Shown: positions 13,984 through 33,271 of the stretch, one piece after another | Layout of the letters: every line of letters starts with the position of its first letter | Numbering within the stretch: the first letter of the stretch is position 1 | Origin: Phyllobacteriaceae bacterium | Lineage (GTDB): Bacteria; Pseudomonadota; Alphaproteobacteria; Rhizobiales; Rhizobiaceae | DNA length: 33,439 nt | Direction of reading: 5' to 3' | NCBI GenBank assembly: GCA_023954255.1 | Contig: JAMLIH010000033.1 | Location: forward strand, 1 to 33,439 | Notes under the pieces: model-generated | Databases searched by the model: none | What the model was told of the DNA's origin: nothing | Seen by the model: the letters and a program-made list of their open reading frames with translations, nothing else | Made by a program: the position numbers and the translations under genes

Positions 13984-14253
13984 GTTGATTGGTTCTCCCA
14001 GTGAGAATTTCTTTTTTTGATAGTTACACACCGCCCGGGAAGGCGGCGGGTTGCGACGGTTGTCGTGCAACATTGCGAAAAGAAAAGCCCATTCCACGGA
14101 CAAAAGCAACAGGCTTTGCAGATTCGCAAAACCCGGCCAGCGGCTAGGTTAAAGGCTCTCGAAAGCCGGTTGTTTGAACAGGGAAAGCATATCCTCGGCG
14201 CCGTGCGCCGTGGGCCGGCCTTTCAGTTTTGCAGGAAGTAAAAATCAATTTTA
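13984..14253 (-). other. Gap upstream of dppA; probable promoter region
   Basis: This 270-base stretch separates the multicopper oxidase stop from dppA and must hold the promoter for the peptide operon if the upstream genes are not read through. I see no convincing -35/-10 pair. There is a small dyad TTTGC-N6-GCAAA at 14115-14130, a possible operator, and a six-base-pair hairpin CGGCGC/GCGCCG at 14196-14210 with no U run. An AT-rich stretch at 14239-14253 directly follows the oxidase stop. No small gene with a ribosome binding site is evident. Confidence 0.4.
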
Positions 14254-17162: not shown

Positions 17163-17228
17163 GTCCACGAAAACTCCGCTTGGCTTCCTTCCCGGGCTTG
17201 CCGTTACACCGCGGCGGCGGGCTGCCTG

Positions 17229-18446: not shown

Positions 18447-18495
18447 GTCTGGTCCCCTTCTGCTCATCAATCAGTATGGTCCGAAATGCCGCAGA

Positions 18496-18584: not shown

Positions 18585-19178
18585 TCAGCCGCCCTTCTGG
18601 CCATAGGCCGTACCCCATCCCCAGGCACCGGAGCCGAAGCCGCGGGCAACGACGCGCTCGCGGTAGATGCCTGACACCACATCGCCGTCGCCGGCGAGCA
18701 GTGCCTTGGTCGAGCACATTTCGGCACAGATCGGGAGTTTTCCTTCCGCGATACGGTTGCGACCGTACTTCTGGAATTCCGCCTGGGAGTTGTTCTCCTC
18801 CGGACCGCCGGCGCAGAAGGTGCACTTGTCCATCTTTCCGCGCGAGCCGAAATTTCCGGCCTGAGGATATTGCGGCGCACCAAAGGGGCACGCGTAGAAG
18901 CAATAGCCGCAGCCGATGCAGAGGTCCTTGGAGTGGAGCACCACGCCGTCGTCCGTCTGGTAGAAGCAATCCACCGGGCAGACCGCCATGCAGGGCGCAT
19001 CCGAACAGTGCATGCAGGCCACGGAGATCGACCGTTCGCCCGGTTTGCCATCATTGATGGTGACCACCCGGCGGCGGTTGATGCCCCACGGCACCTCATG
19101 CTCGTTCTTGCAGGCCGTGACACAGGCGTTGCACTCGATGCAGCGTTCGGCGTCACACAGGAATTTAGCTCTAGCCAT
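18585..19178 (-). CDS. fdoH: Formate dehydrogenase iron-sulfur subunit
   Basis: Beta subunit that carries electrons from the catalytic subunit to the cytochrome b. The 197-residue product has four cysteine groups, each suited to a [4Fe-4S] cluster: CIECNACVTAC (13-23), CMHCSDAPCMAVCP, CIGCGYCFYACP, and a split set CTFC...CAEMC. It lacks the C-terminal membrane helix of E. coli FdnH/FdoH, so contact with the membrane must be through fdoI alone. It has no signal of its own and presumably rides out with the Tat-targeted alpha subunit. It starts 11 bases after fdoG with AAGGAGAAACACG as ribosome binding site. Confidence 0.95.
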   Translation of the reverse strand: MARAKFLCDAERCIECNACVTACKNEHEVPWGINRRRVVTINDGKPGERSISVACMHCSDAPCMAVCPVDCFYQTDDGVVLHSKDLCIGCGYCFYACPFGAPQYPQAGNFGSRGKMDKCTFCAGGPEENNSQAEFQKYGRNRIAEGKLPICAEMCSTKALLAGDGDVVSGIYRERVVARGFGSGAWGWGTAYGQKGG

Positions 19179-19189
19179 CGTGTTTCTCC

Positions 19190-22099
19190 TTAAGCTGCCC
19201 AGATTTTGCAGAGAGTCGCTTTCGTCTCCTGCATCTGTGTTACCGAGTCATAGCCATAGGTCTGGGCGGTGTTGGTACTTTCGCCCAGTACGAAGGGATC
19301 GGCGCCGTCGGGATACTTGTCCCGCAGGTCCTTGCCCTCGAAATGGCCGCCGAAGTGGAACGGCATGAAGGCTACGCCCTCGCCGACCCGCTCGGTCACC
19401 ATTGCCATGACCTTCACCTTGGCGCCTTCCGGCCCCTCAACCCAGACCTGCGCGCCATCACGGACGCCCAGATTGTTGGCATCGCGAGGATTGATCTCGA
19501 CGAACATGTCCTGCTGAAGTTCGGCCAGCCACGGGTTGGAGCGGGTTTCATCGCCGCCGCCTTCATATTCCACGAGGCGTCCCGAAGTCAGGATGATCGG
19601 ATAATCCTTCGAGAAATCCTTCTTCTGGATCGATGCGTAGAGGGTCGGCAAGCGGTAGAACTTGCGGTCCTCATAGGTCGGATAGTCGGCGACCAGATCG
19701 CGACGCGGCGTATAGAGCGGCTCGCGATGCAGCGGCACCGGATCGGGGAAGGTCCAGACCACGGTGCGCGCCTTGGCGTTGCCGAACGGGGCGCAGCCAT
19801 GCTTGATGGCAACGCGCTGGATGCCGCCCGAAAGGTCGGTCTTCCAGTTGATGCCGCCAACCTTGTCGGCTGCTCCTGCCACCTTCTCGATTGCAGCCCG
19901 CTCGTCCGCCGTCAGGTCGCCGTCCCATCCCAGATCCATCAGCATCTGCATGGTGAATTCAGGATAGCCGTCCTGAATCTCGGCGCCAGGGTTGGAGACC
20001 CCCTCGGCGAGCAGGTTGTCGCCATCGCGTTCCACGCCGAAACGGGCGCGGAAGCAAAGGCCGCCCTCGGCCACCGGCTTCGACATGTCGTAGAGGTTCG
20101 GCGTTCCCGGATGGCCCATTTCCGGCGTTCCCCAGCAGGGCCAGGGCATGCCGTAATATTCGCCGTCATTGGGGCCGCCAATCGCCTGCAACGTCGTCTT
20201 GTCGAAGGTGTGCTGGTTGGCCATGTGCGACTTGATGCGTTCCGGAGACTGCCCGGTGTAGCCGATGGTCCACAGCCCGCGGTTGAACTCGCGGGTGGTG
20301 TCCTCGATGTTCGGCTCGTCGTTTTCGTCTACCGCAATGTTGCGGAAGAAGCGGTCCGCCCAGCCGAACTTCTTCGCGAACTTTGCCATGATCGTGTGAT
20401 CGGGCAGGCTTTCGAAGAGCGGTTCGACCACCTTGTCGCGCCACTGCAGCGAGCGGTTGGACGCGGTTACCGAGCCATAGGTCTCGAACTGGGTCGCAGC
20501 CGGCAGCAGGTAGACACCGTCAGTGCGGTCGTGAAGCACGGCAGAAACGGTCGGATACGGGTCGATAACGACCAGCATGTCGAGCATTTCCATCGCGGTC
20601 TTCATTTCCTTCATGCGGGTCTGGGAGTTCGGGGCATGGCCCCAAAGCACCATGGCGCGCACCTTGTTGGGCTGGTCGGTATTGGCCGGGTCCTCGAGGA
20701 CGCCGTCGATCCAGCGGCTGACCGGAATGCCGGTCAGGGTCATGAGGTTCTTGTCCTTGCCTTCGGCATCCTTCACCGTGGCAAACTGGCCTTTCAGCCA
20801 GTCGAAGTCCTCTTCCCAGACGCGTGCCCAGTGGGCCCAGGAGCCGGCGGCAAGGCCGTAATAGCCCGGCAGGGTGTGGCTGAGCACGCCCAGGTCGGTT
20901 GCGCCCTGAACGTTGTCGTGGCCGCGGAAGATGTTGGTTCCGCCGCCGGAGACACCCATGTTGCCGAGTGCCAGCTGCAGGATGCAGTAGGCGCGGGTGT
21001 TGCTGTTGCCGGTCGTGTGCTGGGTACCGCCCATGCACCAGATCACGGTGCCCGGACGGTTGTTGGCCAGCGTGCGGGCGACCCGCTTCAGCTGGCTGCC
21101 CGGCGTGCCGGTAACGCGTTCGGTTTCCTCCGGTGTCCATTTGGCGACTTCGGCCCGGATTTCATCCATGCCCCATACACGGGTGCGGATGAACTCCTTG
21201 TCTTCCCAGCCATTTTCGAAGATGTGCCAGAGAATGCCCCAGATCAGGGCAACGTCCGTACCGGGACGGAAACGGACGAATTCATCGGCATGGGCCGCGG
21301 TGCGCGTGAAGCGCGGGTCGCAGACAATGAGCGGGGCATTGTTCTGCTCCTTGGCCCGCAGCACGTGCAGCAGCGAGACCGGATGGGCCTCGGCCGGATT
21401 GCCGCCGATGATGAAGATGGCCTTCGAGTTGTGGATATCGTTGTAGGAGTTGGTCATGGCGCCGTAGCCCCATGTATTGGCAACGCCAGCAACGGTGGTG
21501 GAGTGACAGATACGGGCCTGGTGGTCGACGTTGTTCGTGCCCCAATAGGCGGCGAACTTGCGGAACAGATAGGCCTGTTCGTTGTTATGCTTGGCGGAAC
21601 CAAGCCAATAGACGCTGTCGGGCCCGCTTTCGTCGCGGATTTTCATCATGCCATCGCCGATCTCGTTGATGGCATCTTCCCAACTGATGCGCTTCCACTC
21701 GCCGCCTTCCTTTTTCATCGGATATTTAAGGCGGCGTTCGCCATGGGCGTGTTCACGCACCGAAGCACCCTTGGCGCAATGCGCCCCGAGGTTGAACGGG
21801 CTGTCCCAGCCGGGCTCCTGCCCGACCCAAACGCCGTTGGAGACTTCGGCGATGACGGTGCAGCCCACCGAGCAGTGGGTGCAGACGGATTTCACGGTTT
21901 GAACGGCGTCACCATTCGTGCTTTGAGCCTGGGCCTTGGTGACTGAACCGCCGGTGGCGGTAATCGCGGCAAGGCCGCCTACCGCAATTCCCGAGCCTTT
22001 CAGAAAAGCCCGGCGGTCAACCGGCTTGTTGACCGTTTCGTGCAGGATACTTGCACCTTGGGGGCGTCGCGCAACCCCATTGGTCTTTTTCCTAAGCAT
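19190..22099 (-). CDS. fdoG: Formate dehydrogenase catalytic subunit, Cys-type molybdenum/tungsten enzyme
   Basis: Periplasmic alpha subunit that oxidises formate to CO2 at a bis-pterin-guanine-dinucleotide Mo or W centre. The 969-residue product has a Tat signal (VDRRAFLKGSG, Arg29-Arg30) and one [4Fe-4S] cluster site CTHCSVGC with a fourth Cys at 108. The active-site motif is ARICHSTTVAGV, where Cys198 replaces the selenocysteine of E. coli FdnG and is followed by the conserved His199. The fold is complete to the C-terminal cofactor-binding domain (GDETRSNPWLAELQ...). ATG 22099 has AGGAGGAAACC before it, which sets the start. The Cys form together with tupABC downstream makes tungsten or molybdenum both possible; the sequence alone does not decide. 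Confidence 0.96.
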   Translation of the reverse strand: MLRKKTNGVARRPQGASILHETVNKPVDRRAFLKGSGIAVGGLAAITATGGSVTKAQAQSTNGDAVQTVKSVCTHCSVGCTVIAEVSNGVWVGQEPGWDSPFNLGAHCAKGASVREHAHGERRLKYPMKKEGGEWKRISWEDAINEIGDGMMKIRDESGPDSVYWLGSAKHNNEQAYLFRKFAAYWGTNNVDHQARICHSTTVAGVANTWGYGAMTNSYNDIHNSKAIFIIGGNPAEAHPVSLLHVLRAKEQNNAPLIVCDPRFTRTAAHADEFVRFRPGTDVALIWGILWHIFENGWEDKEFIRTRVWGMDEIRAEVAKWTPEETERVTGTPGSQLKRVARTLANNRPGTVIWCMGGTQHTTGNSNTRAYCILQLALGNMGVSGGGTNIFRGHDNVQGATDLGVLSHTLPGYYGLAAGSWAHWARVWEEDFDWLKGQFATVKDAEGKDKNLMTLTGIPVSRWIDGVLEDPANTDQPNKVRAMVLWGHAPNSQTRMKEMKTAMEMLDMLVVIDPYPTVSAVLHDRTDGVYLLPAATQFETYGSVTASNRSLQWRDKVVEPLFESLPDHTIMAKFAKKFGWADRFFRNIAVDENDEPNIEDTTREFNRGLWTIGYTGQSPERIKSHMANQHTFDKTTLQAIGGPNDGEYYGMPWPCWGTPEMGHPGTPNLYDMSKPVAEGGLCFRARFGVERDGDNLLAEGVSNPGAEIQDGYPEFTMQMLMDLGWDGDLTADERAAIEKVAGAADKVGGINWKTDLSGGIQRVAIKHGCAPFGNAKARTVVWTFPDPVPLHREPLYTPRRDLVADYPTYEDRKFYRLPTLYASIQKKDFSKDYPIILTSGRLVEYEGGGDETRSNPWLAELQQDMFVEINPRDANNLGVRDGAQVWVEGPEGAKVKVMAMVTERVGEGVAFMPFHFGGHFEGKDLRDKYPDGADPFVLGESTNTAQTYGYDSVTQMQETKATLCKIWAA

Positions 22100-22196
22100 G
22101 GTTTCCTCCTGTAACGACGCCAAAGCGCCGTGGAGCCTCTTTGATCCGGCCAGCGGGCGTCACGCAACCATAGGCCGGGGTTAGCAGGGTCCGGTT

Positions 22197-22478: not shown

Positions 22479-23087
22479 TCAGCTTGCCAGCATCCGGAAT
22501 GCCTCCTGCTCGATTTCCATGAACTGCCGGCCGATTGTGCCGACGGCAGCATAGAAAACCGAGGATCTGGAGCCTTCCAAATCGGTGAAAAAGTGAATGG
22601 CCCAGGGGCCGATATGGGAATCGAAAAACGCCTTCTGGTCTTCAAGCGGCGTGACCGTGCCAAAGCGGCCGACGATCATCCCGCCCATCATTTCCATCAG
22701 CGAAGCGATGTTGTCCTCGGGCTCGTGCTTGCCGGCGGCCCGGACGATGCCGCGCCTGGCCATCTCACCGCGCAACTTGGCAAGCGGCTTCTCGTTGAGG
22801 AAGCCGGTCAGATAGTAACTGGCGAAGGGAAGCAGTTCACCGCGGCCAAGGCCGATGAACAGGGCATTGAATTCGCGTTCCGCCGTTTCGGCAGTGGTAA
22901 CACCGGCAAGCCGCGAAAGGGTATCCATGGTCTGGCCGAGCGGCGAATTGCCGGGCTTCAGATTGGCGATCTGGTTGAGCAGGGATGCATCGGCGGGCTT
23001 GGCCAGAAGAAGGCCAAGAAAATCATAGAGATCGGCGCGCGCCTGATCCTCAGGGTCGACAACATGCAGCTTGTGGACTGCTGACAT
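22479..23087 (-). CDS. TorD-family molybdoenzyme chaperone
   Basis: Cytoplasmic chaperone thought to bind the Tat signal of the catalytic subunit and hold it open for cofactor insertion. The 202-residue helical product shows the family pattern: RADLYDFLGLLLAKP near the N-terminus, EREFNALFIGLGRGELLPFASYYLTG in the middle, and PEDNIASLMEMMGGMI followed by FFDSHIGPWAIHFFTDLE. The ATG at 23087 fits the family start. It is followed by the tiny Tat protein and fdoG, so its client is almost certainly FdoG. Confidence 0.9.
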   Translation of the reverse strand: MSAVHKLHVVDPEDQARADLYDFLGLLLAKPADASLLNQIANLKPGNSPLGQTMDTLSRLAGVTTAETAEREFNALFIGLGRGELLPFASYYLTGFLNEKPLAKLRGEMARRGIVRAAGKHEPEDNIASLMEMMGGMIVGRFGTVTPLEDQKAFFDSHIGPWAIHFFTDLEGSRSSVFYAAVGTIGRQFMEIEQEAFRMLAS

Positions 23088-23161
23088 ACAGCCTGCGCCT
23101 CCCAACGCATGGCGGTGGCTGCAGGTTTCCGGCGCTATTCCCTTCTGTCAGGTAAAGCTTG

Positions 23162-23839
23162 CTACGAGTAGGTGAATCGCATTCTTCGTCTTGGGATCAC
23201 CTGTCCCGCGTCTTCCATTTCGCCGGCTGCTGCCTGTGTTTCTTCCTTGTCTGATGCGACATTTTCGCCCGATTCACTTTGCAATGGAAGGTTTGAGCCG
23301 GTCAATAGGTCATTTTCTGTTTCTTCTCCGGCGATTTCCCCATCGGAAGAGCTGTTTCCGGAGGCGGAATCCTCCGCCGGGCCGTCGCCTTCCGCCGGGC
23401 TCTGGCCGGCCTCTTCCTGTTTTTCCGCCTCGGCCAGCTTCATTACGTGCTCAAGCATTCCCTTGCCGACTTGATAGGTGGTCTGCAGGTTTTCGATGAC
23501 GGTAGCCGTGTCGGTATAGTCCTCGCCATACTCTATCAGCCCGTCGAGATTGGCGAGCGCCGGATTGACTGCCCAAAGGCGGCGCAGGGCACGGCGGCGC
23601 AGCCGTTGCGGCACGGCAGCGGCCAGAAAGGCCGAAAAATCGTCACCTTCCTTCATGCTGTCGGGGTCGGGAAGGCCCAGTTGCTCGAGAATCTCCTCGT
23701 CGGTCTTTTCCTCAATCGCGGCCTGCTCGGCAGCGACGGCCTCGGCTTGCGCCTCGCCGGTTTCCTTCGCCTCCGCCTCACGCACGGCGGCCTTTCGCCG
23801 GCTCCAGAAGTCGCCGCCTGTCTTTTCGCCGGTGCTCAT
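23162..23839 (-). CDS. DUF3306 domain protein
   Basis: Unknown function; 225 residues, no signal or membrane segment. The N-terminal half carries the recognisable family core (FWSRRKAAVREAE, EEILEQLGLPDPDSM, DFSAFLAAAVPQRLRRRALRRLWAVNPALANLDGLIEYGEDYTD). The C-terminal half is a low-complexity acidic tail rich in Glu, Ser and Gly, ending RRRMRFTYS. It overlaps the DUF3305 stop by ATGA (23836-23839). The family is known only from formate dehydrogenase regions and is presumed to help assemble that enzyme. Confidence 0.88.
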   Translation of the reverse strand: MSTGEKTGGDFWSRRKAAVREAEAKETGEAQAEAVAAEQAAIEEKTDEEILEQLGLPDPDSMKEGDDFSAFLAAAVPQRLRRRALRRLWAVNPALANLDGLIEYGEDYTDTATVIENLQTTYQVGKGMLEHVMKLAEAEKQEEAGQSPAEGDGPAEDSASGNSSSDGEIAGEETENDLLTGSNLPLQSESGENVASDKEETQAAAGEMEDAGQVIPRRRMRFTYS

Positions 23840-24408
23840 AGCAGTCGTTTCCCGCGTTTCGTGCCGGGCGTGCGGTAGACATCGCTCAACTGGCGGATAC
23901 GCGCATCGCCGACGCCGTCCTCCGTCTTGTCGACGCGTGTCTTGTCGCGGCGGCGCTTGACGAACTGTTCATCCTCGTGATGCTGCCTGACGAATTCGTT
24001 GATCCAGGCGATGACGCCCGGCGGCATCGGCACTTTCTCGACGATCTCCTCGCCGGTATCGGCATAGTCCTGGCCCTCGTAGGGAGATGCGGTGACGAGT
24101 AGCACCTCCATGGGATGCCGCGGCGTTTCGCTTTGTCGCAGAACGACATAGAGCGAGGGCATCCGCTCTGACAGGGCGGTAAGATAGGCCTCGGTATCGG
24201 TGCGGAAGAGTTCGAGCGGCACGGTGGCGGCATGATACTCCACGGCGCTGTCCTCCTCCCGCAATATCTGCCATTCCGCTGGCCCCGCACCGGGCAGCAC
24301 CGAGACAGGCTTCCATACCCATTTCGCCCAGCGGGTCACGCCCGGCAACCGGCGTATGACGACGCCCATGGGCATGGATTGGGACTTCGGCTGCTCCAAC
24401 TTCGGCAC
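23836..24408 (-). CDS. DUF3305 domain protein
   Basis: Unknown function, about 190 residues. Family features are MPMGVVIRRLPGVTRWAKWVWKP, YHAATVPLELFRTDTEAYL, PSLYVVLRQ, VTASPYEGQDYADTGEEIVEKVPMPPGVIAWI and a basic EQFVKRRRDK region. The start is uncertain. GTG 24408 gives the usual ten or so residues before MPMGVV; ATG 24375 would remove them, and GTG 24495 would add 29 residues with poor codon bias. It is the first gene of the long minus-strand formate dehydrogenase operon and is divergent from the large ferredoxin gene, a layout shared by many alphaproteobacterial clusters. Confidence 0.82.
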   Translation of the reverse strand: MPKLEQPKSQSMPMGVVIRRLPGVTRWAKWVWKPVSVLPGAGPAEWQILREEDSAVEYHAATVPLELFRTDTEAYLTALSERMPSLYVVLRQSETPRHPMEVLLVTASPYEGQDYADTGEEIVEKVPMPPGVIAWINEFVRQHHEDEQFVKRRRDKTRVDKTEDGVGDARIRQLSDVYRTPGTKRGKRLL

Positions 24409-24488
24409 TTTCCATCTGCTTTGGCCGCCCGCATCCGCGAGCACGGCATTGAGCCAATCTGCTAGATGTTGGCGCCGGTTGTAAAGGC

Positions 24489-24518
24489 TTGACACGGACT
24501 GCCCAACTCAACCTAGAT
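24489..24518 (+). promoter_or_regulatory. Candidate sigma-70 promoter for the large ferredoxin gene
   Basis: TTGACA at 24489-24494 (in the context CTTGACA favoured by alphaproteobacteria) is followed 18 bases later by CTAGAT at 24513-24518, a partial -10 match. It would start transcription about 65 bases before ATG 24593. The -35 is good, the -10 only fair, and the spacing is one base long. Confidence 0.4.
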
Positions 24519-24592: not shown

Positions 24593-26572
24593 ATGGCCGA
24601 GCGCAAGCTCATTTTGTGCGATTGTCTGGGAAGCCAGGCCATCGATCCGGACAGACTCGAAGCTGCAACGGGAATAGCCTGTTCGCGTGTCCACAACGCG
24701 CTGTGCATGGAGCAATCCCAGTTGGCGGCAAAGGCGATCGAGGCTGGCGGTGCGATCATCGCCTGCCAGCAGGAGCGCCATTTTTTCGAGGAACTTGCCG
24801 GCGATCTCGATGTGGAACTGCCCGATTTCGTCGATATCCGCGACCGGGCGGGCTGGTCGCAGGACAGCCGGCCCAATGCGCCGAAAATGGCAGCGCTGGT
24901 TGCCGATGCCGTGCTTGAAGCATCTGCCACCAAGGTGATGGACGTCGAATCATCGGGACTGTGCCTCATCCTCGGCGACCCTGATGTGGCATTGAGCGCT
25001 GCGCGGCAGTTGGGCGACATGCTCAACGTAACCGTTCTGCTGGCGCCCGGCTCGAATGCTGGCGATGGCGACGACCGGCGCTTCGACATTGTTCATGGCA
25101 GGCTTGCCGGTGCCACCGGCGCCTTTGGCGGTTTCGAGGTCAGGATCGATGCGCTTCAGGAACGCATTCGCGGGGGGCGGGGCGAACCTGCCCTGACACC
25201 GCCGAAGGACGGTGCACGGTCGGTTTGCGATATCATTCTCGACCTTTCCGGGGGCAATCCGCTGTTTTCCGCTCATGAGAAGCGGGAAGGCTATCTGCGC
25301 GCCGATCCGAAAAATACTGAAGCCCGGATTGCTGCCATTATCGAAGCCTCGCAACTGGTGGGCACGTTCGAAAAGCCGCTTTATGTCCGGCTTGAATCAT
25401 CGCTTTGCGCCCATTCGCGGGCACAGAAGACCGGTTGCACACGATGTCTCGACCTGTGTCCGACCGGCGCGATTACGCCCAATGGCGATCATGTCGAGGT
25501 CGATGCCATGGTCTGCGCAGGCTGCGGTGCGTGCTCGGCGGTCTGTCCCTCGGGCGCGATTTCATACGATGCGCCGCCGGTCTCGTCCGTGTTCAAGCGC
25601 ATCGAGGTGTTGGCGAGCACCTGGCGGAAACTGTCGGACGATGCGCCGCGCCTGCTGGTGCATGATGCCGGTTTCGGTGCAGAGGCCATCCGGCTGTCCG
25701 CACGCCATGGCAGGGGGCTGCCCGCCGATGTGATCCCGATGGAGATTTCCTCGCTGGCGGCCTTCGGCCATGCCGAAATGCTGGCATCGCTGGCAAGCGG
25801 TTTTGCCACCGTGACAACGCTTGTCTCGCCGACCACCGAGAAAGACGGGCTTGGCTTCGAAGTCGAACTGACCAATGCAATCGGGGCAGGGGCCATTGGC
25901 GGAGGAGGGAAGGCATTCCTCATCGAGCCGGGCGATCCCGATGTACTGGAGGAGGCGCTCTGGATTGATGAGACGCCGGATGCGGTGACAGAACCGATCC
26001 TGCCGCTCGGAAACCGCCGGCAGGTCACCCGGCTGTCGGCCAAGGCGCTCAACAGAGACGACACCGTCATCGCATTGCCGCAACGCGCACCCTATGGCTC
26101 GCTTGATGTGGATACAGCGGCCTGTACGCTCTGCCTCTCCTGCGTGTCGCTTTGCCCCTCCGGCGCGCTGGCCGACAATCCGGACATGCCGCAACTGCGT
26201 TTTCAGGAAGATGCCTGCCTGCAATGCGGCATCTGCGCCCATGCCTGTCCGGAGAATGCCATCTCGCTGGTGCCGCGGCTGAACCTTGCCAGTGAGGCGC
26301 TGTCGCACCGTGTCGTGCATGAGGAAGAGCCGTTTGCCTGCATCGAGTGTGGCGCACCTTTCGGCGTACGCTCGACGGTGATGCGGATTACCGAGAAGCT
26401 GGCCGGCAAGCACTCGATGTTTGCCAGCAAGGATGCGATCCGGATGATCCAGATGTGCGACAATTGCCGGGTCAATGCGGCGTATCACTCGGAGAACAAT
26501 CCGTTTGCCGCCGGAGAACGGCCAAAGGTGCGGACCACCGAGGACTATCAGTCCAAGCGCAAGGACCACTGA
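24593..26572 (+). CDS. Large 4Fe-4S ferredoxin-like protein of the formate dehydrogenase cluster
   Basis: The 659-residue product carries two ferredoxin pairs: cysteines 272/282/285/289 with 308/311/314/318, and 511/514/517/521 with 542/545/548/552, each followed by the usual Pro. That predicts four [4Fe-4S] clusters. A final set CIECG (583-586) and CDNCR (622-625) looks like a zinc or Fe-S knuckle. The N-terminal 60 residues hold five more cysteines (9, 11, 30, 38, 58) in an HdrA-like opening, LILCDCLGSQ. No signal peptide is visible, so it should be cytoplasmic. It may supply electrons or clusters for maturation of the exported enzyme, or couple formate oxidation to a cytoplasmic acceptor. 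GAAAGGGAATGC precedes ATG 24593. It converges on the cytochrome gene, nine bases apart. Confidence 0.88.
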   Translation: MAERKLILCDCLGSQAIDPDRLEAATGIACSRVHNALCMEQSQLAAKAIEAGGAIIACQQERHFFEELAGDLDVELPDFVDIRDRAGWSQDSRPNAPKMAALVADAVLEASATKVMDVESSGLCLILGDPDVALSAARQLGDMLNVTVLLAPGSNAGDGDDRRFDIVHGRLAGATGAFGGFEVRIDALQERIRGGRGEPALTPPKDGARSVCDIILDLSGGNPLFSAHEKREGYLRADPKNTEARIAAIIEASQLVGTFEKPLYVRLESSLCAHSRAQKTGCTRCLDLCPTGAITPNGDHVEVDAMVCAGCGACSAVCPSGAISYDAPPVSSVFKRIEVLASTWRKLSDDAPRLLVHDAGFGAEAIRLSARHGRGLPADVIPMEISSLAAFGHAEMLASLASGFATVTTLVSPTTEKDGLGFEVELTNAIGAGAIGGGGKAFLIEPGDPDVLEEALWIDETPDAVTEPILPLGNRRQVTRLSAKALNRDDTVIALPQRAPYGSLDVDTAACTLCLSCVSLCPSGALADNPDMPQLRFQEDACLQCGICAHACPENAISLVPRLNLASEALSHRVVHEEEPFACIECGAPFGVRSTVMRITEKLAGKHSMFASKDAIRMIQMCDNCRVNAAYHSENNPFAAGERPKVRTTEDYQSKRKDH

Positions 26573-26581
26573 TACCGGCTG

Positions 26582-27337
26582 TTACTGCACCTTGAGGGGT
26601 GAGCCCAGGTCGGCCGGTTCGATCGTGCGAACAAAGGCGAGGATCGCCTCGATATCCTGCAGCGACAATTCGAGCGGCGCGATCGGCGGCGGACGCGTTT
26701 CGTCGAACGGCTCGGTGACCTCCGCGACAATGGTGAAGGCGGGGTGCGGGTTGAGTGCATAAAAGGCCTCGAAGCGGTTGCTCCAGTCGGGAAAGCCACG
26801 CATCAGGGCAAAGGACGGCGTAGAGCCGATGGTGGTCATGCGGGTCTTTTCGTTGACCATGTGGCAGCGCCCGCAATGGCGCTCGGCAAGGTTCTCCCCC
26901 TGCACCGCATCGCCCGTGGCAACAACATTCACCTTCTGAGCCTTTTTTGCGGCGGCAGGTGTGAAAGGCTGTTTTCCATTGGCGGAAAAGGAAGCCAGGG
27001 TACGCTGGCCGACGTCACCGGCAAGCCATTCCTCGAATTTTCCTGCGTTTTCGCTGTCCGGCTCGGTTTCGAGATACCAGTCGTTTTCGGGACCGGAGAA
27101 GACCAGTCTGCCTTTGCCTTCGCTGTTGAGGCGGAGGGACGCGGTTTCAGTTTCGCCCACCAGCTCCAGCCTTGTGCCGGTCTTCAGCGAATACCTCGGA
27201 AGGAGATATTTCAGCAGCCCGGTTTCCACCAGGTTTGCCGGCGCGCTGAACCGCAAGGCGCTTTCTTCCGCCATCAAATCCTGTGCAGCAAAAGCCGGCA
27301 TTACAAATGCCAGCATGGCTGCCGCAGCCCTGCGCAT
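26582..27337 (-). CDS. Cytochrome c with an N-terminal TupA-like mini-domain
   Basis: Periplasmic protein of 251 residues. A signal peptide (1-18, ending AFA) is followed by a domain of about 100 residues and a class I cytochrome c domain with haem motif CGRCH at 155-159 and the phrases GSTPSFALMRGFPDW, NPHPAF and RPPPIAPL. Residues 38-60 resemble residues 39-61 of the TupA encoded at 30959-31795 (9 of 23 identical by my count, including YLLP). Residues 101-128 resemble TupA 241-268 (10 of 28 identical, including WL, GQ and the F-x-P ending). These two TupA segments pack together in lobe I of binding proteins, so the domain may be a shrunken binding-protein lobe. ATG 27337 has GGGAGGAGACATC upstream. 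It is transcribed alone, divergent from DUF6494. Confidence 0.85.
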   Translation of the reverse strand: MRRAAAAMLAFVMPAFAAQDLMAEESALRFSAPANLVETGLLKYLLPRYSLKTGTRLELVGETETASLRLNSEGKGRLVFSGPENDWYLETEPDSENAGKFEEWLAGDVGQRTLASFSANGKQPFTPAAAKKAQKVNVVATGDAVQGENLAERHCGRCHMVNEKTRMTTIGSTPSFALMRGFPDWSNRFEAFYALNPHPAFTIVAEVTEPFDETRPPPIAPLELSLQDIEAILAFVRTIEPADLGSPLKVQ

Positions 27338-27429: not shown

Positions 27430-27624
27430 GTGAGCGAAGACTTCAACATGTCCATGCGCAAGTTCCTCAAGCAGGTGGGGGTTACTTCCCAGCAGGCGAT
27501 CGAGGAAGCGATGCGCAAGGCCGGTGATACGTCCGGCAAGACGTTCAAGGTGAAAATGGTGCTGACCATCGAAGAGCTTGACTTAAAGCATGAAGTTGAT
27601 GGCGCCATCGAGGGGCAGTCCTGA
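27430..27624 (+). CDS. DUF6494 family small protein
   Basis: Unknown function; 64 residues, charged and soluble, with the family pattern FNMSMRKFLKQVGVTSQQAIEEAMRKA, then KTFKVKMVLTIEELDLKHEVDG. GTG 27430 is six bases after AGGAG and is preferred to the GTG at 27427, which is only three bases away. One base separates its stop from the mrp start, so the two are co-translated. The steady pairing with an Fe-S carrier ATPase suggests an accessory role in Fe-S or cofactor delivery, which is inference. Confidence 0.85.
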   Translation: MSEDFNMSMRKFLKQVGVTSQQAIEEAMRKAGDTSGKTFKVKMVLTIEELDLKHEVDGAIEGQS

Positions 27625-27625
27625 C

Positions 27626-28711
27626 GTGGCACTCGGGCGAGAGACCGTCCTTGAAGCGCTGAAGGCGATCCTCGATCCGGCAACGGGGGAGGACATCGTC
27701 TCGGCGGGCATGGTGCGTGCCCTGCAGGTCAATGGGAATTCCGTCCGGTTCGTTCTGGAAGTCCCGGCGGGCAGGGCCGATGAGATGGCAGCGGTTCGCG
27801 ATGCTGCGGAGGCAGCCCTTGCTGCGCTGGAAGGCTGCAGTTCGGCGCAAGTCGTCATGACGGCGCATTCCGCCACACCGCAACCCGAACCAAAACGCGA
27901 GCCGCAGCCGATCCGCCCCGATCCGGCACCTGCGGCGGCAGGCCCTCAGAAAGTTCCGGGGATCGGGCGCATCATTGCAATTGCGTCCGGCAAGGGCGGC
28001 GTCGGCAAATCGACCGTCGCGGCAAACCTTGCCTGTGCGCTTGCCGCGGAGGGCCGAAAAGTCGGCCTGCTCGATGCTGACGTCTACGGTCCCTCGCAGC
28101 CGCGCATGCTGGGGGTTTCCGGCAGACCGTCCTCGCCGGACGGCAAGACCATTCTGCCCTTGCGCAATCACGGCGTGACGATGATCTCCATCGGGCTGAT
28201 GACCGATGGCGACAAGGCGGTTGCCTGGCGCGGGCCGATGCTGATGGGGGCGTTGCAGCAGATGATGAGCCAGGTGCAGTGGGGGGCGCTCGACGTTCTG
28301 CTTGTCGACCTTCCGCCGGGCACGGGCGACGTGCAGATGACACTCGGCCAGAAATTCAAGGTGGATGGCGCGGTCATTGTCTCTACGCCGCAGGACATTG
28401 CGCTGATCGATGCCCGCAAGGGCATCGACATGTTCCAGCAGATGGGCATTCCGATCGCCGGTATGGTGGAGAACATGTCGACCCATATCTGCTCGCAGTG
28501 CGGCCATGAGGAGCATCTCTTCGGCCATGGCGGCGTGGCAGCGGAAGCGGAAAAGCTGGGCGCGCCCTTGCTGGCGGAAATCCCGCTGCATCTCGATATC
28601 CGCACCGCCGGCGACGGTGGGGCGCCTGTTGTCGTGGCACGACCCGAATCACGCGAAGCAGAAGTATTCAAGGCAATGGCCCGCAGGCTGGTGGAAGGCG
28701 GCTACGCATGA
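27626..28711 (+). CDS. mrp: Mrp/NBP35-family Fe-S cluster carrier ATPase
   Basis: Cytoplasmic P-loop ATPase that binds and transfers a [4Fe-4S] cluster. The 361-residue product has an N-terminal MIP18/DUF59 domain (about 1-85), a Pro-rich linker, deviant Walker A SGKGGVGKST at 121-130, DADVYGPSQP, LLVDLPPGTGD, and the cluster-binding pair Cys289-x-x-Cys292. The GTG start at 27626 gives the normal DUF59 opening (GRETVLEALKAILDP) and lies one base after DUF6494; ATG 27590 would overlap that gene by 35 bases. In most proteobacteria mrp is solitary, so its presence inside this cluster suggests a copy dedicated to the formate dehydrogenase. Whether another mrp exists elsewhere cannot be seen. Confidence 0.93.
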   Translation: MALGRETVLEALKAILDPATGEDIVSAGMVRALQVNGNSVRFVLEVPAGRADEMAAVRDAAEAALAALEGCSSAQVVMTAHSATPQPEPKREPQPIRPDPAPAAAGPQKVPGIGRIIAIASGKGGVGKSTVAANLACALAAEGRKVGLLDADVYGPSQPRMLGVSGRPSSPDGKTILPLRNHGVTMISIGLMTDGDKAVAWRGPMLMGALQQMMSQVQWGALDVLLVDLPPGTGDVQMTLGQKFKVDGAVIVSTPQDIALIDARKGIDMFQQMGIPIAGMVENMSTHICSQCGHEEHLFGHGGVAAEAEKLGAPLLAEIPLHLDIRTAGDGGAPVVVARPESREAEVFKAMARRLVEGGYA

Positions 28712-29409
28712 GTGAGCCGACCTTTCCGCCGTTGTTTGCCGGGGAGGAACTGACCGGCCGGGGCGATCCTTTCGAGCGGGCGAAGGCGCAGGCTATTGCC
28801 GGATGCGATCCGGGCACGATTATCTACAATCTTTCCAACGAGGCGCTTCGGGCTGCCATCGTTTTCGGCCCGGAAGTGCCGCTTGAAGATGCGATGGCAA
28901 TGCTGCCTGCCTGCGGTGTCGGGTTTCAGAATGCGCTCGGCTCGCTGGCGCCGCCGGAGGTTGCGGTGCATCTCGAATGGGACGGCAATATCCGCGTCAA
29001 TGGTGCGCGTTGCGGATATCTGAAGGCAGGTGCCTCGACGCAGGAGAGCGGTACCGAGCCGGACTGGCTGCTGATCGGCCTTCATCTCGACCTGCTGCCT
29101 GCCGGCGACTCGCCAGGCGACAATCCTGACCGCACGGCGCTTTACGAGGAAGGGTGTGCCGATGTCGAGGCGCAGGCGCTGCTGGAAGCATGGGTGCGGC
29201 ATACGCTCTACTGGATCAACCGCTGGAGTGACGAGGGCCCCCGCCCGCTGCATGCCGCATGGCGGGAACTGGCGCATGATCTGGGCGAGCCGGTTGGGTT
29301 CTGCGGCGTCGCGGGAACCTTTGTCGGTGTGGACGAGCAATTCGGCGCCTTGCTAAGGGATGGCGAAAAGACCCATCTTGTCCATCTGAGCCAACTGCTG
29401 GAGAAGTGA
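28708..29409 (+). CDS. Biotin/lipoate-ligase-like protein with DUF4444
   Basis: The 233-residue product matches the BPL_LplA_LipB_2 family with a C-terminal DUF4444 part (NPDRTALYEEGCADVEAQALLEAWVRHTLYWINRW, then GTFVGVDEQFGALLR). The ligase core is recognisable at EWDGNIRVNGARCGYL (90-105), which corresponds to the KWPNDI-VNG-K-GG-L motif of true biotin ligases. The catalytic Lys is replaced by Glu90 and I find no GRGRRGR loop. Ordinary ligase activity is therefore doubtful; it may bind a cofactor or partner instead. It overlaps mrp by ATGA at 28708-28711 and is followed after two bases by DUF6505, so it works with them. Confidence 0.83.
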   Translation: MSEPTFPPLFAGEELTGRGDPFERAKAQAIAGCDPGTIIYNLSNEALRAAIVFGPEVPLEDAMAMLPACGVGFQNALGSLAPPEVAVHLEWDGNIRVNGARCGYLKAGASTQESGTEPDWLLIGLHLDLLPAGDSPGDNPDRTALYEEGCADVEAQALLEAWVRHTLYWINRWSDEGPRPLHAAWRELAHDLGEPVGFCGVAGTFVGVDEQFGALLRDGEKTHLVHLSQLLEK

Positions 29410-29411
29410 GC

Positions 29412-29891
29412 ATGAAGCTTGCCCGCGCCATCCATCTCGACGAAAGCGACCGCAATGTCTTTTTTTCTCCGGCGCGCACTGGGGAGTGGTGCATTGCCGG
29501 CGGTTTCGAATTCTCCGACTGGACGCAGGGCGATCTCGTCGGCAAGGCGCGGCAGGCGTTCGCCAATGGCTGGCTTGGACTGGAGACCTTCGGCAGGGTA
29601 ACCTTCGTTGCCGTGACGCCGGTCGAGGCGGGCGAGTTCGAGATGCTGGCGGACCGGCTGGCGCAGCATTTCGTCGATGTCTATGGCGCGCCGGACATGG
29701 GGCAGGCGCGGCCGGCAGCGCTGGAGGAACTCAACTTCATGGCGGAACTCTGCAGCGAACATGATGCCAACACGCTGCTGACGGTGCAGCGCGAACTTGC
29801 CGATGAGGGGGTTCGCGAGAGCTTCCGGGCGATCGAGCCGCAGGCAGCCGAACTGGAACAGGTGGCCGTTCACGGCTCCCTTGATGGGTAG
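29412..29891 (+). CDS. DUF6505 family protein
   Basis: Unknown function; 159 residues, soluble and acidic. Recognisable pattern: KLARAIHLDESDRNVFFSPA, GEWCIAGGFEFSDW, GKARQAFANGWLGLETFGR, and AALEELNFMAELC near residue 108. ATG 29412 is eight bases after GGAG; GTG 29406 is possible but poorly spaced. It lies between the ligase-like gene and the regulator. The family appears to be restricted to this type of cluster, which suggests an assembly factor. Confidence 0.83.
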   Translation: MKLARAIHLDESDRNVFFSPARTGEWCIAGGFEFSDWTQGDLVGKARQAFANGWLGLETFGRVTFVAVTPVEAGEFEMLADRLAQHFVDVYGAPDMGQARPAALEELNFMAELCSEHDANTLLTVQRELADEGVRESFRAIEPQAAELEQVAVHGSLDG

Positions 29892-29906: not shown

Positions 29907-30791
29907 ATGACGGAATTCCTGACAACCAAGGAAGTCGCCAGCCTGCTGCGCATCAAGGAGCGCAAGGTCTACGATCTGGTCTCATCCGGTGTGCTTCCCT
30001 GTACGCGAGCGATCGGGAAGCTGCTTTTCCCGCGCGAGCAGATCGAGGCCTGGCTTGCCAGCAATTCGGAGATGCCTTCTCCATCTGTTGCAACGTCCAA
30101 AGCCATTCGCCCCGATGTCTTTCTGGGCAGCCACGATCCGCTGCTCGAATGGGCGATCCGTGAATCGCGTTGCGGGCTCGCCATGCTGTTCGACAGCAGC
30201 CGCGACGGACTGGAAAGGTTCGCGGGTAGTGGCGGAATTGCCACCGGACTGCATCTTCCGGGCAGGAAGCAGGGCGACTGGAATGTGGACGATGTGAAGG
30301 CCCGATTCGCGGCAAGCCCCACCGTTCTGGTCGAGTGGGCCAGACGGCAGCGCGGACTGGTGTTGCGCAGCGATCTTTCCCCGTTGCCCGGCGAACTGTC
30401 GGAGATCCGGGGATTGCGTTTCGTGCCGCGCCAGACCAAGGCGGGCTCACAGGTGTTTTTCGAGCGGCTGCTCGGCGAGGCGGGCCTCACCATGGAGGAT
30501 CTCGATCCATGCCGCGAGGTTCTGAGCGAGCAGGACGTGGTGCAGACGGTTGCTGCGGGAAGGGCGGACGCCGGGTTCGCACTGGCAAGCCTTGCTGCGG
30601 GGTTCAAGCTGCCATTCGTGCCGCTGGGCGAGGAGCGGTTCGATCTTCTGGTTGACCGGCGGGCCTGGTTCGAGCCGCCGTTCCGGAAGCTGCTTGCCTT
30701 CTGCCGCAGCGCTGCCTTTGGCGAGAAGGCGGCCGAGCTGGGCGGTTACGACGTTTCCGGTTTCGGGACTGTCCATTTCAACGGAGCCTGA
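29907..30791 (+). CDS. HTH regulator with a periplasmic-binding-protein-like sensor domain
   Basis: Cytoplasmic DNA-binding protein, 294 residues. Residues 1-55 are an excisionase/MerR-type helix-turn-helix (LTTKEVASLLRIKERKVYDLVSSG, then FPREQIEAWL). Residues from about 70 on form a PBP_like domain of the kind found in molybdate-linked regulators and MoeA-like proteins (DPLLEWAIRES, GSGGIATGLH, FVPRQTKAGSQVFFERLL, GRADAGFALASLA). The position directly before tupABC, converging on it, suggests that it senses tungstate or molybdate, or a pterin cofactor, and controls the island. The candidate operator is the inverted repeat at 33267-33308. It starts 15 bases after DUF6505. Confidence 0.85.
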   Translation: MTEFLTTKEVASLLRIKERKVYDLVSSGVLPCTRAIGKLLFPREQIEAWLASNSEMPSPSVATSKAIRPDVFLGSHDPLLEWAIRESRCGLAMLFDSSRDGLERFAGSGGIATGLHLPGRKQGDWNVDDVKARFAASPTVLVEWARRQRGLVLRSDLSPLPGELSEIRGLRFVPRQTKAGSQVFFERLLGEAGLTMEDLDPCREVLSEQDVVQTVAAGRADAGFALASLAAGFKLPFVPLGEERFDLLVDRRAWFEPPFRKLLAFCRSAAFGEKAAELGGYDVSGFGTVHFNGA

Positions 30792-30958: not shown

Positions 30959-31795
30959 CTAGCCGGCTTTCTTCATCTGGCCTGGATCAGCATTGGGGAA
31001 GAACAATTGCTGACCGTCGACCTGATAGGAGCGGATGGCATTCTGGCCCTCCGCCGACAACAGCCAATCGATAAAGGCCTGGCCTTCAGCCTGTTTCACG
31101 CTCGGGCATTTCTCCGGATTGACGAGAATGACGCCATACTGGTTGAACATCGCTTCATCGCCTTCGACGGCGATTTCATAATCGCCCTTGTTGCCGAAGC
31201 TGATCCAGGTGGCGCGGTCGGTCATCACATAGGCGCCCATGCCGACCCCGGCGTTGAGCGTAGCGCCCATGCCGGAGCCGGTGGAGCGGTACCACTCACC
31301 ACCCGGTTCGATGCCTGCGGTCTTCCACAGTGACATTTCCTTCTTGTGGGTGCCCGAATCATCGCCGCGCGAGGCAAACGGCGCCTTGGCCTCGGCGAGC
31401 TTGGTCAGCGCGGCCTTGACGTCGTTCATGCCTTTCACGCCGGCGGGGTCGCCGGCCGGGCCGACGATGACGAAGTCGTTGTACATCAGGTCGAAACGCT
31501 GAACGCCATAGCCTTCACTGACGAATTTTTCCTCCGACGCCTTGGCATGAACGAGTAGCACGTCGGCATCGCAGTTCTGGGCGTTCTTGATCGCCTGGCC
31601 GGTGCCGACGGCAACCACGTTGACCGTGATGCCTGACTTGCCGGTAAAGGCCGGCAACAGATAGTCATAGAGGCCGGAATTGGCTGTCGATGTGGTCGAC
31701 TGGACCAGGATCGACTTGTCCTGGGCATTTGCCAGACCACCTGCCAGCGTGATTGTCATCGCGCCAGCGATTGCAAGCTTGTGGATGATCTTCAT
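30959..31795 (-). CDS. tupA: Tungstate ABC transporter periplasmic binding protein
   Basis: Periplasmic receptor that binds tungstate with high affinity (molybdate in some relatives). The 278-residue product has a Sec signal (cleavage after ANA near residue 24), the TupA anion-binding motif TTSTANSG at 34-41, and the second diagnostic motif SRGDDSGTH at 142-150. It ends with the lobe-closing helix FIDWLLSAEGQNAIRSY. These two motifs separate TupA from ModA and WtpA. There are two adjacent ATGs; I chose 31795, five bases after AAGGAGG, over 31798. It is the last gene of the tup operon, 11 bases after tupC, with the strongest ribosome binding site of the three, as expected for a receptor. Confidence 0.95.
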   Translation of the reverse strand: MKIIHKLAIAGAMTITLAGGLANAQDKSILVQSTTSTANSGLYDYLLPAFTGKSGITVNVVAVGTGQAIKNAQNCDADVLLVHAKASEEKFVSEGYGVQRFDLMYNDFVIVGPAGDPAGVKGMNDVKAALTKLAEAKAPFASRGDDSGTHKKEMSLWKTAGIEPGGEWYRSTGSGMGATLNAGVGMGAYVMTDRATWISFGNKGDYEIAVEGDEAMFNQYGVILVNPEKCPSVKQAEGQAFIDWLLSAEGQNAIRSYQVDGQQLFFPNADPGQMKKAG

Positions 31796-31806
31796 CATAT
31801 CCTCCT

Positions 31807-32571
31807 TCAGTTTTTCGATGGGTGTTGATGGGTTTCCGGCAGCCGGCCTTCGAGATAGGCAGCTGCTTGACCGGATTTGGGGTTGGCGAAAAACAGCCTG
31901 GCCGGTGCCTGTTCGAGGACGCGGCCGCGATCAATGAAGATGACCTCGTCGGAAAGGCGGCGGGCCTGGCCGACGTCATGGGTCACCATGATGATCTTGG
32001 TTCCTTCTGCGCTGGCTGCCAGCACGATCTGCTCGATGGCATGCACGGAAGCCGGATCGAGGCTGGCCGTGGCCTCGTCCAGAAACAGGACGTCCGGCTT
32101 GCAGCCGATTGCCTGGCCGAGGGCGAGGCGTTGCTTCTCGCCGCCGGAGAGCAACCGGGCAGGACGGTTTTCGAGGCCCGAAAGCCCAACGCCTTCCAGT
32201 GCCGCCAATGCCTGCGCCCTGTCATGGATGCCGCGGCTTGCAAGTGCAAAACGAATATTGTCGAGAACGGTACGGCGCAGGATGACGGGCTTCTGAAACA
32301 CCATGGCCTGGCGATGCCGGACTGTTGCCGTCAGCGGTGTGCCATTCCACAAGACCGAGCCTTCGGAAGGCTCGAGCAATCCGTGCAGCAGACGCAGGAG
32401 CAGGCTCTTGCCGGCGCCGTTGTAGCCGACAATGGTGCTGATGCCGGACGAAAGGAAATCAAGGTCGATCGCATCGATGAGGCGCCGCTCTCCCGCACGA
32501 TACACCAGCCCCTGGCAGGAAAGGGCATGCCGTTGATCCGTGGCTGGCATGGTGCCGGTCCGCTCAAGCAT
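31807..32571 (-). CDS. tupC: Tungstate ABC transporter ATPase
   Basis: Cytoplasmic ATPase of the importer. The 254-residue product has Walker A GYNGAGKS at 49-56, a Q-loop in MVFQKPVILRRTV, signature LSGGEKQRLALGQAI, Walker B VLFLDEATASLD and the switch His in MVTHD. It lacks the C-terminal regulatory TOBE domain found in ModC. ATG 32571 overlaps the tupB stop by eight bases; ATG 32550 is the other choice. Confidence 0.94.
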   Translation of the reverse strand: MLERTGTMPATDQRHALSCQGLVYRAGERRLIDAIDLDFLSSGISTIVGYNGAGKSLLLRLLHGLLEPSEGSVLWNGTPLTATVRHRQAMVFQKPVILRRTVLDNIRFALASRGIHDRAQALAALEGVGLSGLENRPARLLSGGEKQRLALGQAIGCKPDVLFLDEATASLDPASVHAIEQIVLAASAEGTKIIMVTHDVGQARRLSDEVIFIDRGRVLEQAPARLFFANPKSGQAAAYLEGRLPETHQHPSKN

Positions 32572-33271
32572 AACCGAGCCTCGATGCGGACAGTCTCAGG
32601 CTTGCGACCATTGCGTTGACGATGAGGGCAATCGCCAGCAGCACGATCCCCAGTGCGACGGCAAGCGACAGGTTGCCCTTGGAGGTCTCCAGTGCGATTG
32701 CCGTCGTCATGACGCGGGTGAGATGCTCGATATTGCCGCCAACGATGATGACGGCGCCAACTTCCGCCACCGAGCGGCCGAAAGCGGCGAGCGCCACGGT
32801 GATCAGCGAATAGCGGCCGTCCCAAAGCACGGCTCTGATCTGGGCAGGCATGCCGAGACCGAGCGAGGCGAAATGTTCGCGGTATTCGTCGTGCAGGTCT
32901 TCCAGCACCTGACGGGAAAGGGCGGCGACGATGGGCGTGATCAGGATCGTCTGGGCAATGATCATTGCCGTTGGTGTGTAAAGCAGGCCAAGCCAGCCCA
33001 AAGGACCGGCGCGTGACAGGTTGAGATACACGAACAGGCCGACAACGACCGGCGGAAGGCCCATCAGGGCATTGAGCAGGATGATGCATCCCTGCCGGCC
33101 GCGAAACTGTGAAACCGCCAGAAAGGCGCCGAGGACGAGGCCGATCAGGCAGGAAAGCGCCGTCGCCGAAAGGCTTACCCGCAACGACAGGCCGATGATT
33201 TCGAGAAAGCCCGAATCCATCGACAGGATCTGCGTCAATGCGCCTTTCAATTCGGATGCAAAATCCTGCAT
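32564..33271 (-). CDS. tupB: Tungstate ABC transporter permease
   Basis: Inner-membrane channel of the importer, 235 residues, with about five membrane segments (near residues 23-55, 64-85, 97-118, 150-180 and 197-225) and the ATPase-docking loop EYREHFASLGLGMPAQIRAVLW. The family phrases GLPPVVVGLFVYLNLSRAGPLG and GRSVAEVGAVIIVGGNIEHLTRVMTTAIALE are those of TupB. It is the first gene of the operon. Its ATG at 33271 is buried in the inverted repeat described separately. Confidence 0.94.
   Translation of the reverse strand: MQDFASELKGALTQILSMDSGFLEIIGLSLRVSLSATALSCLIGLVLGAFLAVSQFRGRQGCIILLNALMGLPPVVVGLFVYLNLSRAGPLGWLGLLYTPTAMIIAQTILITPIVAALSRQVLEDLHDEYREHFASLGLGMPAQIRAVLWDGRYSLITVALAAFGRSVAEVGAVIIVGGNIEHLTRVMTTAIALETSKGNLSLAVALGIVLLAIALIVNAMVASLRLSASRLGYA

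Follow-up and report, generated by a model that had tools for sequence, protein, structure and literature searches.

A cytochrome c encoded in a formate dehydrogenase gene cluster of a Phyllobacteriaceae bacterium was found to consist of two domains. The N-terminal one (here called the N-domain) derives, with near certainty, from a TupA-type tungstate-binding protein, of which lobe A is kept and lobe B is missing, and the C-terminal one is a haem domain. The lobe has lost the tungstate site and is nevertheless well conserved in many alphaproteobacteria, hence it probably has a new job such as docking.

Organization of the Cytochrome and of Its Gene Neighbourhood

The features of the window, i.e., the whole stretch of 33,439 nucleotides that was analysed, are collected in Table 1. 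The gene, its position and the two TupA-like segments of its product were all as described in the original prediction, and the identities counted there by eye (9/23 and 10/28) proved exact in an ungapped count. The TupA residue numbers used here are higher by one, since the reading frame retains an extra start Met. The two-domain architecture was defined on an alignment of 51 sequences, the window protein included, and runs in the order signal, N-domain, short linker and cytochrome c domain. The first TupA-matching segment corresponds to the first strand, the first helix and the second strand of the TupA-derived domain, and the second one to its last helices, with the WL and F-x-P motifs.

Table 1. 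Features of the two-domain cytochrome and of the genes around it in the window.
Feature	Position	Strand	Basis
Two-domain cytochrome gene	26582..27337	-	251 aa plus stop; reading-frame translation
Sec-type signal peptide (putative), about residues 1-23	27269..27337	-	Basic start and hydrophobic run, by eye
TupA-derived half domain, residues 26-128, ~105 residues	26954..27262	-	Profile searches, hhalign, Foldseek
First TupA-matching segment, residues 26-60	27158..27262	-	BLASTP, hhalign, shuffling
Residues 33-35 (P-A-N), aligned with the T-T-S motif of TupA	27233..27241	-	Alignment
Residues 48-56 with basic R48, K52 and R56	27170..27196	-	Kept in the family, not in TupA
Second TupA-matching segment, residues 98-128	26954..27046	-	BLASTP, PDB profile search, hhalign, shuffling
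Cytochrome c domain, residues 142-245	26603..26914	-	PF00034, 24.9 bits (cut-off 21.3)
Haem-binding C-G-R-C-H, residues 155-159	26861..26875	-	C155, R157, C158 and H159 invariant in 81/81
His198, putative second axial haem ligand	26744..26746	-	Invariant in 81/81
FdhC, cytochrome b subunit	17229..18470	-	PF01292
FdhB, 4Fe-4S subunit	18585..19178	-	Family search
FdhA, formate dehydrogenase catalytic subunit	19190..22123	-	TIGR01591, E 6.5e-142, 473.9 bits (below the 666-bit cut-off)
TorD/NarJ-type chaperone	22479..23105	-	PF02613
DUF3306 and DUF3305 proteins	23162..24495	-	Family search
659-aa multi-4Fe-4S protein	24593..26572	+	Family search
DUF6494, Mrp/ApbC ATPase, lipoate-ligase-like protein, DUF6505	27430..29891	+	Family search
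HTH plus PBP-like regulator	29907..30791	+	PF12728 and PF12727
TupA, tungstate-binding protein	30959..31798	-	NF041772, E 5e-67, 226 bits (cut-off 400); PDB TupA 5my5, E 7.1e-72
ABC ATPase, here named TupC	31807..32571	-	ABC motifs, by eye
ABC permease, here named TupB	32564..33271	-	PF00528

The cytochrome gene is a member of the formate dehydrogenase gene cluster, and its product would belong to a membrane-bound, periplasm-facing formate dehydrogenase system. A Tat-type signal was recognized by eye in FdhA. The cytochrome gene is convergent (tail to tail) with the gene of the 659-aa multi-4Fe-4S protein and divergent (head to head) with the DUF6494 gene.

Directly after fdhC, at 15816-17168 (-), a WD40 beta-propeller is fused to a cytochrome c domain; the same gene follows fdhC in several relatives, so that the cluster holds another unusual haem fusion. 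The lipoate/biotin-ligase-like protein (28708-29409, +; PF16917, DUF4444) is encoded beside the cytochrome in most of the clusters seen. The gene for the HTH plus PBP-like protein adjoins tupA, and its product is perhaps a molybdate- or tungstate-responsive regulator.

Derivation of the N-Domain from TupA

BLASTP of the cytochrome against the TupA of the window gave two colinear segments (E 3e-4 and 6e-4), and the real score was reached by none of the 5000 shuffled sequences for either segment (0/5000 and 0/5000). The NCBIfam TupA family (NF041772) matched the cytochrome in two stretches with an E value of 4.3e-7 and 29.6 bits, below the 400-bit cut-off for membership. This cut-off is strict, because the TupA of the window itself and all TupA matches in 70 genomes with the two-domain cytochrome also fell below 400 bits. 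When the N-domain profile was aligned with 82 TupA rows in hhalign, the probabilities were 97.1 for the first segment and 96.2 for the second. A chance match of the N-domain to TupA was ruled out by the shuffling and by the profile searches.

Run against all PDB chains, the N-domain profile (45 sequences) returned as its first five matches 3muq (E 1.6e-6), 5my5 (1e-4), 3cvg and 3lr1 (2.7e-4 each) and 3kn3 (0.037), exactly the five that the TupA of the window finds at E 0.01 or better; tungstate binding is named in the titles of 5my5 and 3lr1 only. Among the N-domains of the 45 relatives, 34 matched NF041772 with E values of up to 1; the five other families listed had one matching member each. 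The Pfam scan of the N-domain of the window protein gave no match, and in the relatives it gave weak matches to solute-binding families in two and in one of the 45 members. A phmmer search with the window protein picked out three frames of TupA size in other genomes, each matched in two stretches in the correct order, and two of them (G208 and G301) are TupA. In a search of 190 genomes, the N-domain profile found matches in 55; three exceeded 114 bits, all of them two-domain cytochromes, and the remaining ones, at 36.6 bits or less, often appeared as paired ends in frames of TupA size.

A side observation from this search is G016:C48:12870-14539, with four N-domain profile matches (the first being locus L214) in two adjoining frames of 569 and 366 aa, which look like two tupA-like genes in tandem.

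Foldseek aligned 5my5 to the N-domain with 24% identity over 106 structurally aligned residues. With the full-length model as the query, no match reached E 0.001, and the first three matches were of TupA type (E 3.8e-3, 6.5e-3 and 1.8e-2). It had been proposed that deletion of the middle of TupA left a compact half domain, with a fold prediction and a profile search named as the checks. The proposal is supported by both: the predicted fold of the N-domain matched TupA-type proteins best, and both segments gave TupA matches above background. The N-domain does not have two lobes and a ligand cleft; about 105 of its residues align to both ends of TupA, which leaves no room for lobe B (about 110 residues).

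The residues between the two segments, about 62-95, showed no clear sequence match of their own. A five-strand reading, in which the third and the central strands of lobe A are kept, suits the strands predicted there; alternatively, the profile sometimes continues unbroken into the last ~68 residues of TupA (positions 43-109). Over much of residues 61-100, the relatives differ in sequence and length.

Loss of the Ligand Site and Gain of Basic Positions

The tungstate contacts described for the D. alaskensis TupA are Thr9-11, Ser12, His59, Arg118, Thr124 and Asp170 (PMC5517513), to whose numbering we matched the TupA of the window by inference. Arg118, Thr124 and Asp170 belong to lobe B and are therefore missing from the N-domain. 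The T-T-S motif, nearly universal in the TupA rows (Thr in 82/82, Thr in 82/82 and Ser in 81/82), occurs in 0/51 rows of the two-domain family, so the loss of the TTST oxyanion motif noted earlier for the window protein extends to all 51 aligned sequences. The first place of the motif is taken by Pro in 41/51, and Thr stands at the first or second place in 0/51. His59 of TupA aligns into the stretch without a clear match (residues ~62-95); the N-domain of the window protein has no His, but a His occurs within positions 61-97 in 30/51 family rows, 22 of which have it at position 88. All 51 rows keep a Ser or Thr at position 39 and Gly40; both lie near the ligand site of TupA, where helix 1 begins. 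It is very likely that the N-domain does not bind tungstate.

Seven residues of the N-domain are identical in 51/51 rows (G40, P47, R48, K52, W104, L105 and G110); G40, P47, W104 and G110 are near-invariants common to the N-domain and TupA. Several basic positions set the family apart. Lys or Arg is found at position 48 (R48) in 51/51 family rows vs 15/82 TupA rows, at position 52 (K52) in 51/51 vs 29/82, and at position 56 (R56) in 48/51 vs 6/82; the corresponding counts for position 112 (R112) are 41/51 and 12/82. A single turn separates R48 from K52 where the first helix ends; in binding proteins of this class, we take that end to be the one facing away from the ligand.

The Haem Domain

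In an alignment of 81 haem domains (51 from two-domain and 30 from one-domain proteins), C155, R157, C158, H159, P174, S175, F176, F192, P197 and H198 were invariant. The CxxCH motif and a Pfam Cytochrom_C match above the cut-off agree with a class I cytochrome c; the conserved distal Met of that class was not found in the 81 aligned sequences, the best Met column (167) having Met in 38/51 two-domain and 10/30 one-domain sequences. As H198 is invariant and no Met column is, H198 is the candidate second ligand. The haem is likely His/His-ligated (H159 and H198), the whole family being likely bis-His, and such a haem is here likely to be of low potential. The model of the haem domain had a mean pLDDT of 46, and the full-length model mostly 26-44 by blocks in this region. 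A PDB search with the haem domain gave weak partial matches, with the best E value of 0.0022.

Loci of Relatives and Origin of the Lobe

Among 29 two-domain loci of other genomes, FdhA was present within the fetched stretch, which is short, in 23, Mrp/ApbC in 27, and TupA or TupB in 6. Three of the six loci without FdhA (L001, L002 and L128) stop at contig ends, and in L100, L107 and L132 FdhA is not in the fetched stretch, although this was not truncated there. Cluster genes accompanied the one-domain cytochrome in 7/12 stretches (L104, L118, L120, L121, L122, L124 and L127) and were absent from 5/12 (L117, L119, L123, L125 and L126). In two close relatives, L104 (G096) and L117 (G782), the cytochrome lacks the lobe and the haem domain follows almost directly after the signal. 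The lobe-less cytochrome of G096 lies inside a complete cluster; the lobe is thus dispensable in such relatives. At L099, L108, L113, L128 and L133, about 1.2 to 3.7 kb of extra DNA separates the iron-sulphur and cytochrome genes.

A tree was built from 65 haem domains (113 columns), 34 of them taken from the 51 two-domain sequences and 31 from one-domain ones; the two-domain rows needed one change of state on it. A branch with 100/99 support parts 29 one-domain rows from the other 36, i.e., all the two-domain rows together with G096 and G782. The branch dividing the two-domain rows from these two had a support of 56/0, and a single change of state occurred in 58% of bootstrap trees. The one change of state suggests that the lobe was gained once, which we consider likely, within one lineage of the cluster.

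Relation to the TupA Genes

TupA was present in 70/70 two-domain genomes tested (of the 75 found; G812, G868, G869, G870 and G873 were left out), in 39/39 genomes with the lobe-less cytochrome, chosen by us among the one-domain matches of the class and order searches, and in 23/40 genomes of the G331 order without a cytochrome match (20 listed as unmatched and 20, G702-G730, taken as unmatched because they were absent from the match list). Tungstate uptake thus goes with the cytochrome, with or without the lobe, and the co-occurrence, as frequent without the lobe, is uninformative on a contact between the lobe and TupB. We infer that it fits a tungsten formate dehydrogenase.

In a tree built on 70 aligned columns, few in number and leaving many unresolved forks, 26/51 N-domains formed one group with SH-aLRT 99. 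Identity to these 26 was compared for 76 distinct of the 82 TupA rows. The mean was 28.4% for the 22 rows encoded within 40 kb of a two-domain cytochrome, 30.0% for the 12 unlinked rows of two-domain genomes and 30.3% for the 42 rows of other genomes. TupAs encoded close to the cytochrome are no more similar to the N-domain than the others; the N-domain would seem to be an old derivative of TupA, and a recent copy of the neighbouring gene is not supported.

A minor observation concerns L103 (G154), where TupC- and TupB-like matches (12636-14032) lie beside the cluster with no TupA match between them and DUF6505; the TupA match of this genome is 2.6 Mb away. The transporter is there parted from its binding protein, beside a lobe-bearing cytochrome.

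Possible Role of the Two-Domain Cytochrome

Enzymes of this class oxidize formate in the periplasm by FdhA and pass the electrons via FdhB to FdhC and quinone, and the enzyme encoded here would do the same. The cytochrome may serve the system as a soluble, periplasmic mono-haem carrier or as a branch point, with the His/His haem (H159 and H198) carrying the electrons. The lobe would no longer bind an oxyanion and would act as a docking or adaptor domain instead. Docked through a basic patch peculiar to this family (R48, K52 and R56, where helix 1 ends), it could keep the haem domain close to the formate dehydrogenase or to the redox partner of that enzyme. A formate dehydrogenase cytochrome with TupA lobe A as a docking or adaptor domain is the best explanation we can offer and has an even chance of being correct; docking itself, judged from the conserved residues, is the best role for the lobe and is about evenly balanced against all others. 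The lobe-less cytochromes of G096 and G782, the lack of FdhA at L100, L107 and L132, the 56/0 support of the dividing branch and the His of 30/51 rows speak against this explanation.

The protein might instead assist in maturing or activating the formate dehydrogenase, as MxaJ/XoxJ may do for methanol dehydrogenase, with the lobe binding a subunit in its apo or partly folded form and the haem domain playing a secondary part. According to published descriptions, periplasmic dehydrogenases require XoxJ, MxaJ and their relatives, which are binding-protein-like, and probable maturation genes (NarJ-type chaperone and Mrp/ApbC) abound in the cluster. However, lobe-less versions of the cytochrome serve the more divergent clusters. 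Moreover, Tat-exported enzymes receive their metal cofactor in the cytoplasm, so that any action of a factor in the periplasm would have to follow export, and we regard such a role as conceivable though unlikely. That the lobe is a mere stabilizing spacer left by an accidental fusion agrees with the variability of much of residues 61-100, but a passive spacer does not explain the seven residues identical in 51/51 rows, two of which (R48 and K52) are not conserved in TupA; this we consider quite improbable.

It could also be argued that the lobe imitates TupA at TupB, or at TupA, and that the cytochrome tunes tungstate import to the redox state of the formate dehydrogenase chain, given that every two-domain genome tested has TupA and that the distance from the cytochrome to the best TupA match is no more than 5 kb in 21/70 genomes and no more than 20 kb in 44/70. 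Yet TupA is equally universal with the lobe-less cytochrome, and tup genes also stand beside the lobe-less clusters L118, L120, L121, L124 and L127; the link to TupA therefore follows the metal need of the enzyme and not the lobe. Besides, the TupA match is on another contig in 19/70 genomes and more than 100 kb away in five more, and R48, K52 and R56, not being conserved in TupA, are no inherited contact to TupB. Imitation of TupA is thus very unlikely, and it is highly improbable that the TupA-like lobe lets the state of the haem in the formate dehydrogenase chain gate the import of tungstate; if true, a probable tungsten enzyme would thereby exert redox feedback on the supply of its own metal. 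We give hardly any credence to the lobe alone still binding an oxyanion or another small ligand, with the protein as a sensor or scavenger: the conserved Ser/Thr 39 and Gly40 and the His of 30/51 rows would be compatible with it, but lobe B with its three contacts and the TTS motif are both gone.

Comparison with Known Systems

The N-domain resembles TupA (5my5 and 3lr1; NF041772) in the first strand-helix-strand unit and the last helices, and differs from it in the absence of lobe B and of the TTS motif and in being joined to a haem domain. The single-domain cytochromes of the divergent clusters (e.g., L118, L120, L122 and L124) share with the window protein the haem domain, CxxCH, His198 and the cluster genes, but are without the TupA lobe.

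A haem protein derived in part from a metal-oxyanion receptor had been thought new, and this stands in part. We found no description of a two-domain TupA-lobe cytochrome in the open PMC papers searched. A precedent for joining a cytochrome to a binding protein is XoxG/J (cytochrome cGJ) of Methylacidiphilum, described as XoxG fused to the binding protein XoxJ and as taking electrons from methanol dehydrogenase (PMC8170126, PMC8498564). With such a fusion already on record, the present protein is new only as a variant. Both proteins combine a cytochrome c with a domain derived from a periplasmic binding protein, and both go with a one-carbon dehydrogenase. They differ in that XoxJ is taken, by description, as a whole binding protein and the present domain is a single lobe, and in that XoxG/J serves methanol dehydrogenase and the neighbour here is formate dehydrogenase. 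By analogy, XoxG/J, together with XoxJ/MxaJ, may be seen as a close functional parallel of the present cytochrome. To our knowledge, XoxJ is not of the TupA kind.

For XoxJ, MxaJ and their relatives, help with cofactor insertion or with the contact between dehydrogenase and cytochrome has been proposed (PMC12997753, PMC7391723). As presented in these papers, MxaJ, XoxJ and PedG likewise re-use the binding-protein fold as a dehydrogenase accessory, and they are separate proteins with no haem mentioned for them, unlike the two-domain cytochrome. Through our results, a common formate dehydrogenase cluster gains a two-domain cytochrome that is widespread and unnamed, and a redox protein is seen to re-use a binding protein of which a single lobe is left. 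The results also make it testable why receptor folds for metals and solutes have been recruited repeatedly (XoxJ, MxaJ and now the TupA lobe) beside periplasmic dehydrogenases and cytochromes.

Distribution of the Two-Domain Cytochrome

All distribution searches were run with the full-length window protein as the query. At the class level, 33/385 genomes gave a match, 7 of them over both domains, and in the order of the window 65/297 did so, with 8 over both domains; both counts include the window's own genome. The order of G331 gave matches in 61/195 genomes, 59 of which were counted as two-domain (G782 has the haem domain only, G694 a TupA-like fragment, and G823 has the lobe), and the order of G366 in 8/14, all two-domain. 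In the phylum sample of 398 genomes, two-domain matches were confined to 7 alphaproteobacteria, the window's own included, and four matches outside the class were partial. Relatives were also found in draft genomes of Nitratireductor, Ahrensia and Roseovarius, and on plasmids of Tateyamaria, Sulfitobacter and Sagittula. The five plasmid-borne relatives are labelled 'hypothetical protein' (four) and 'c-type cytochrome' (one).
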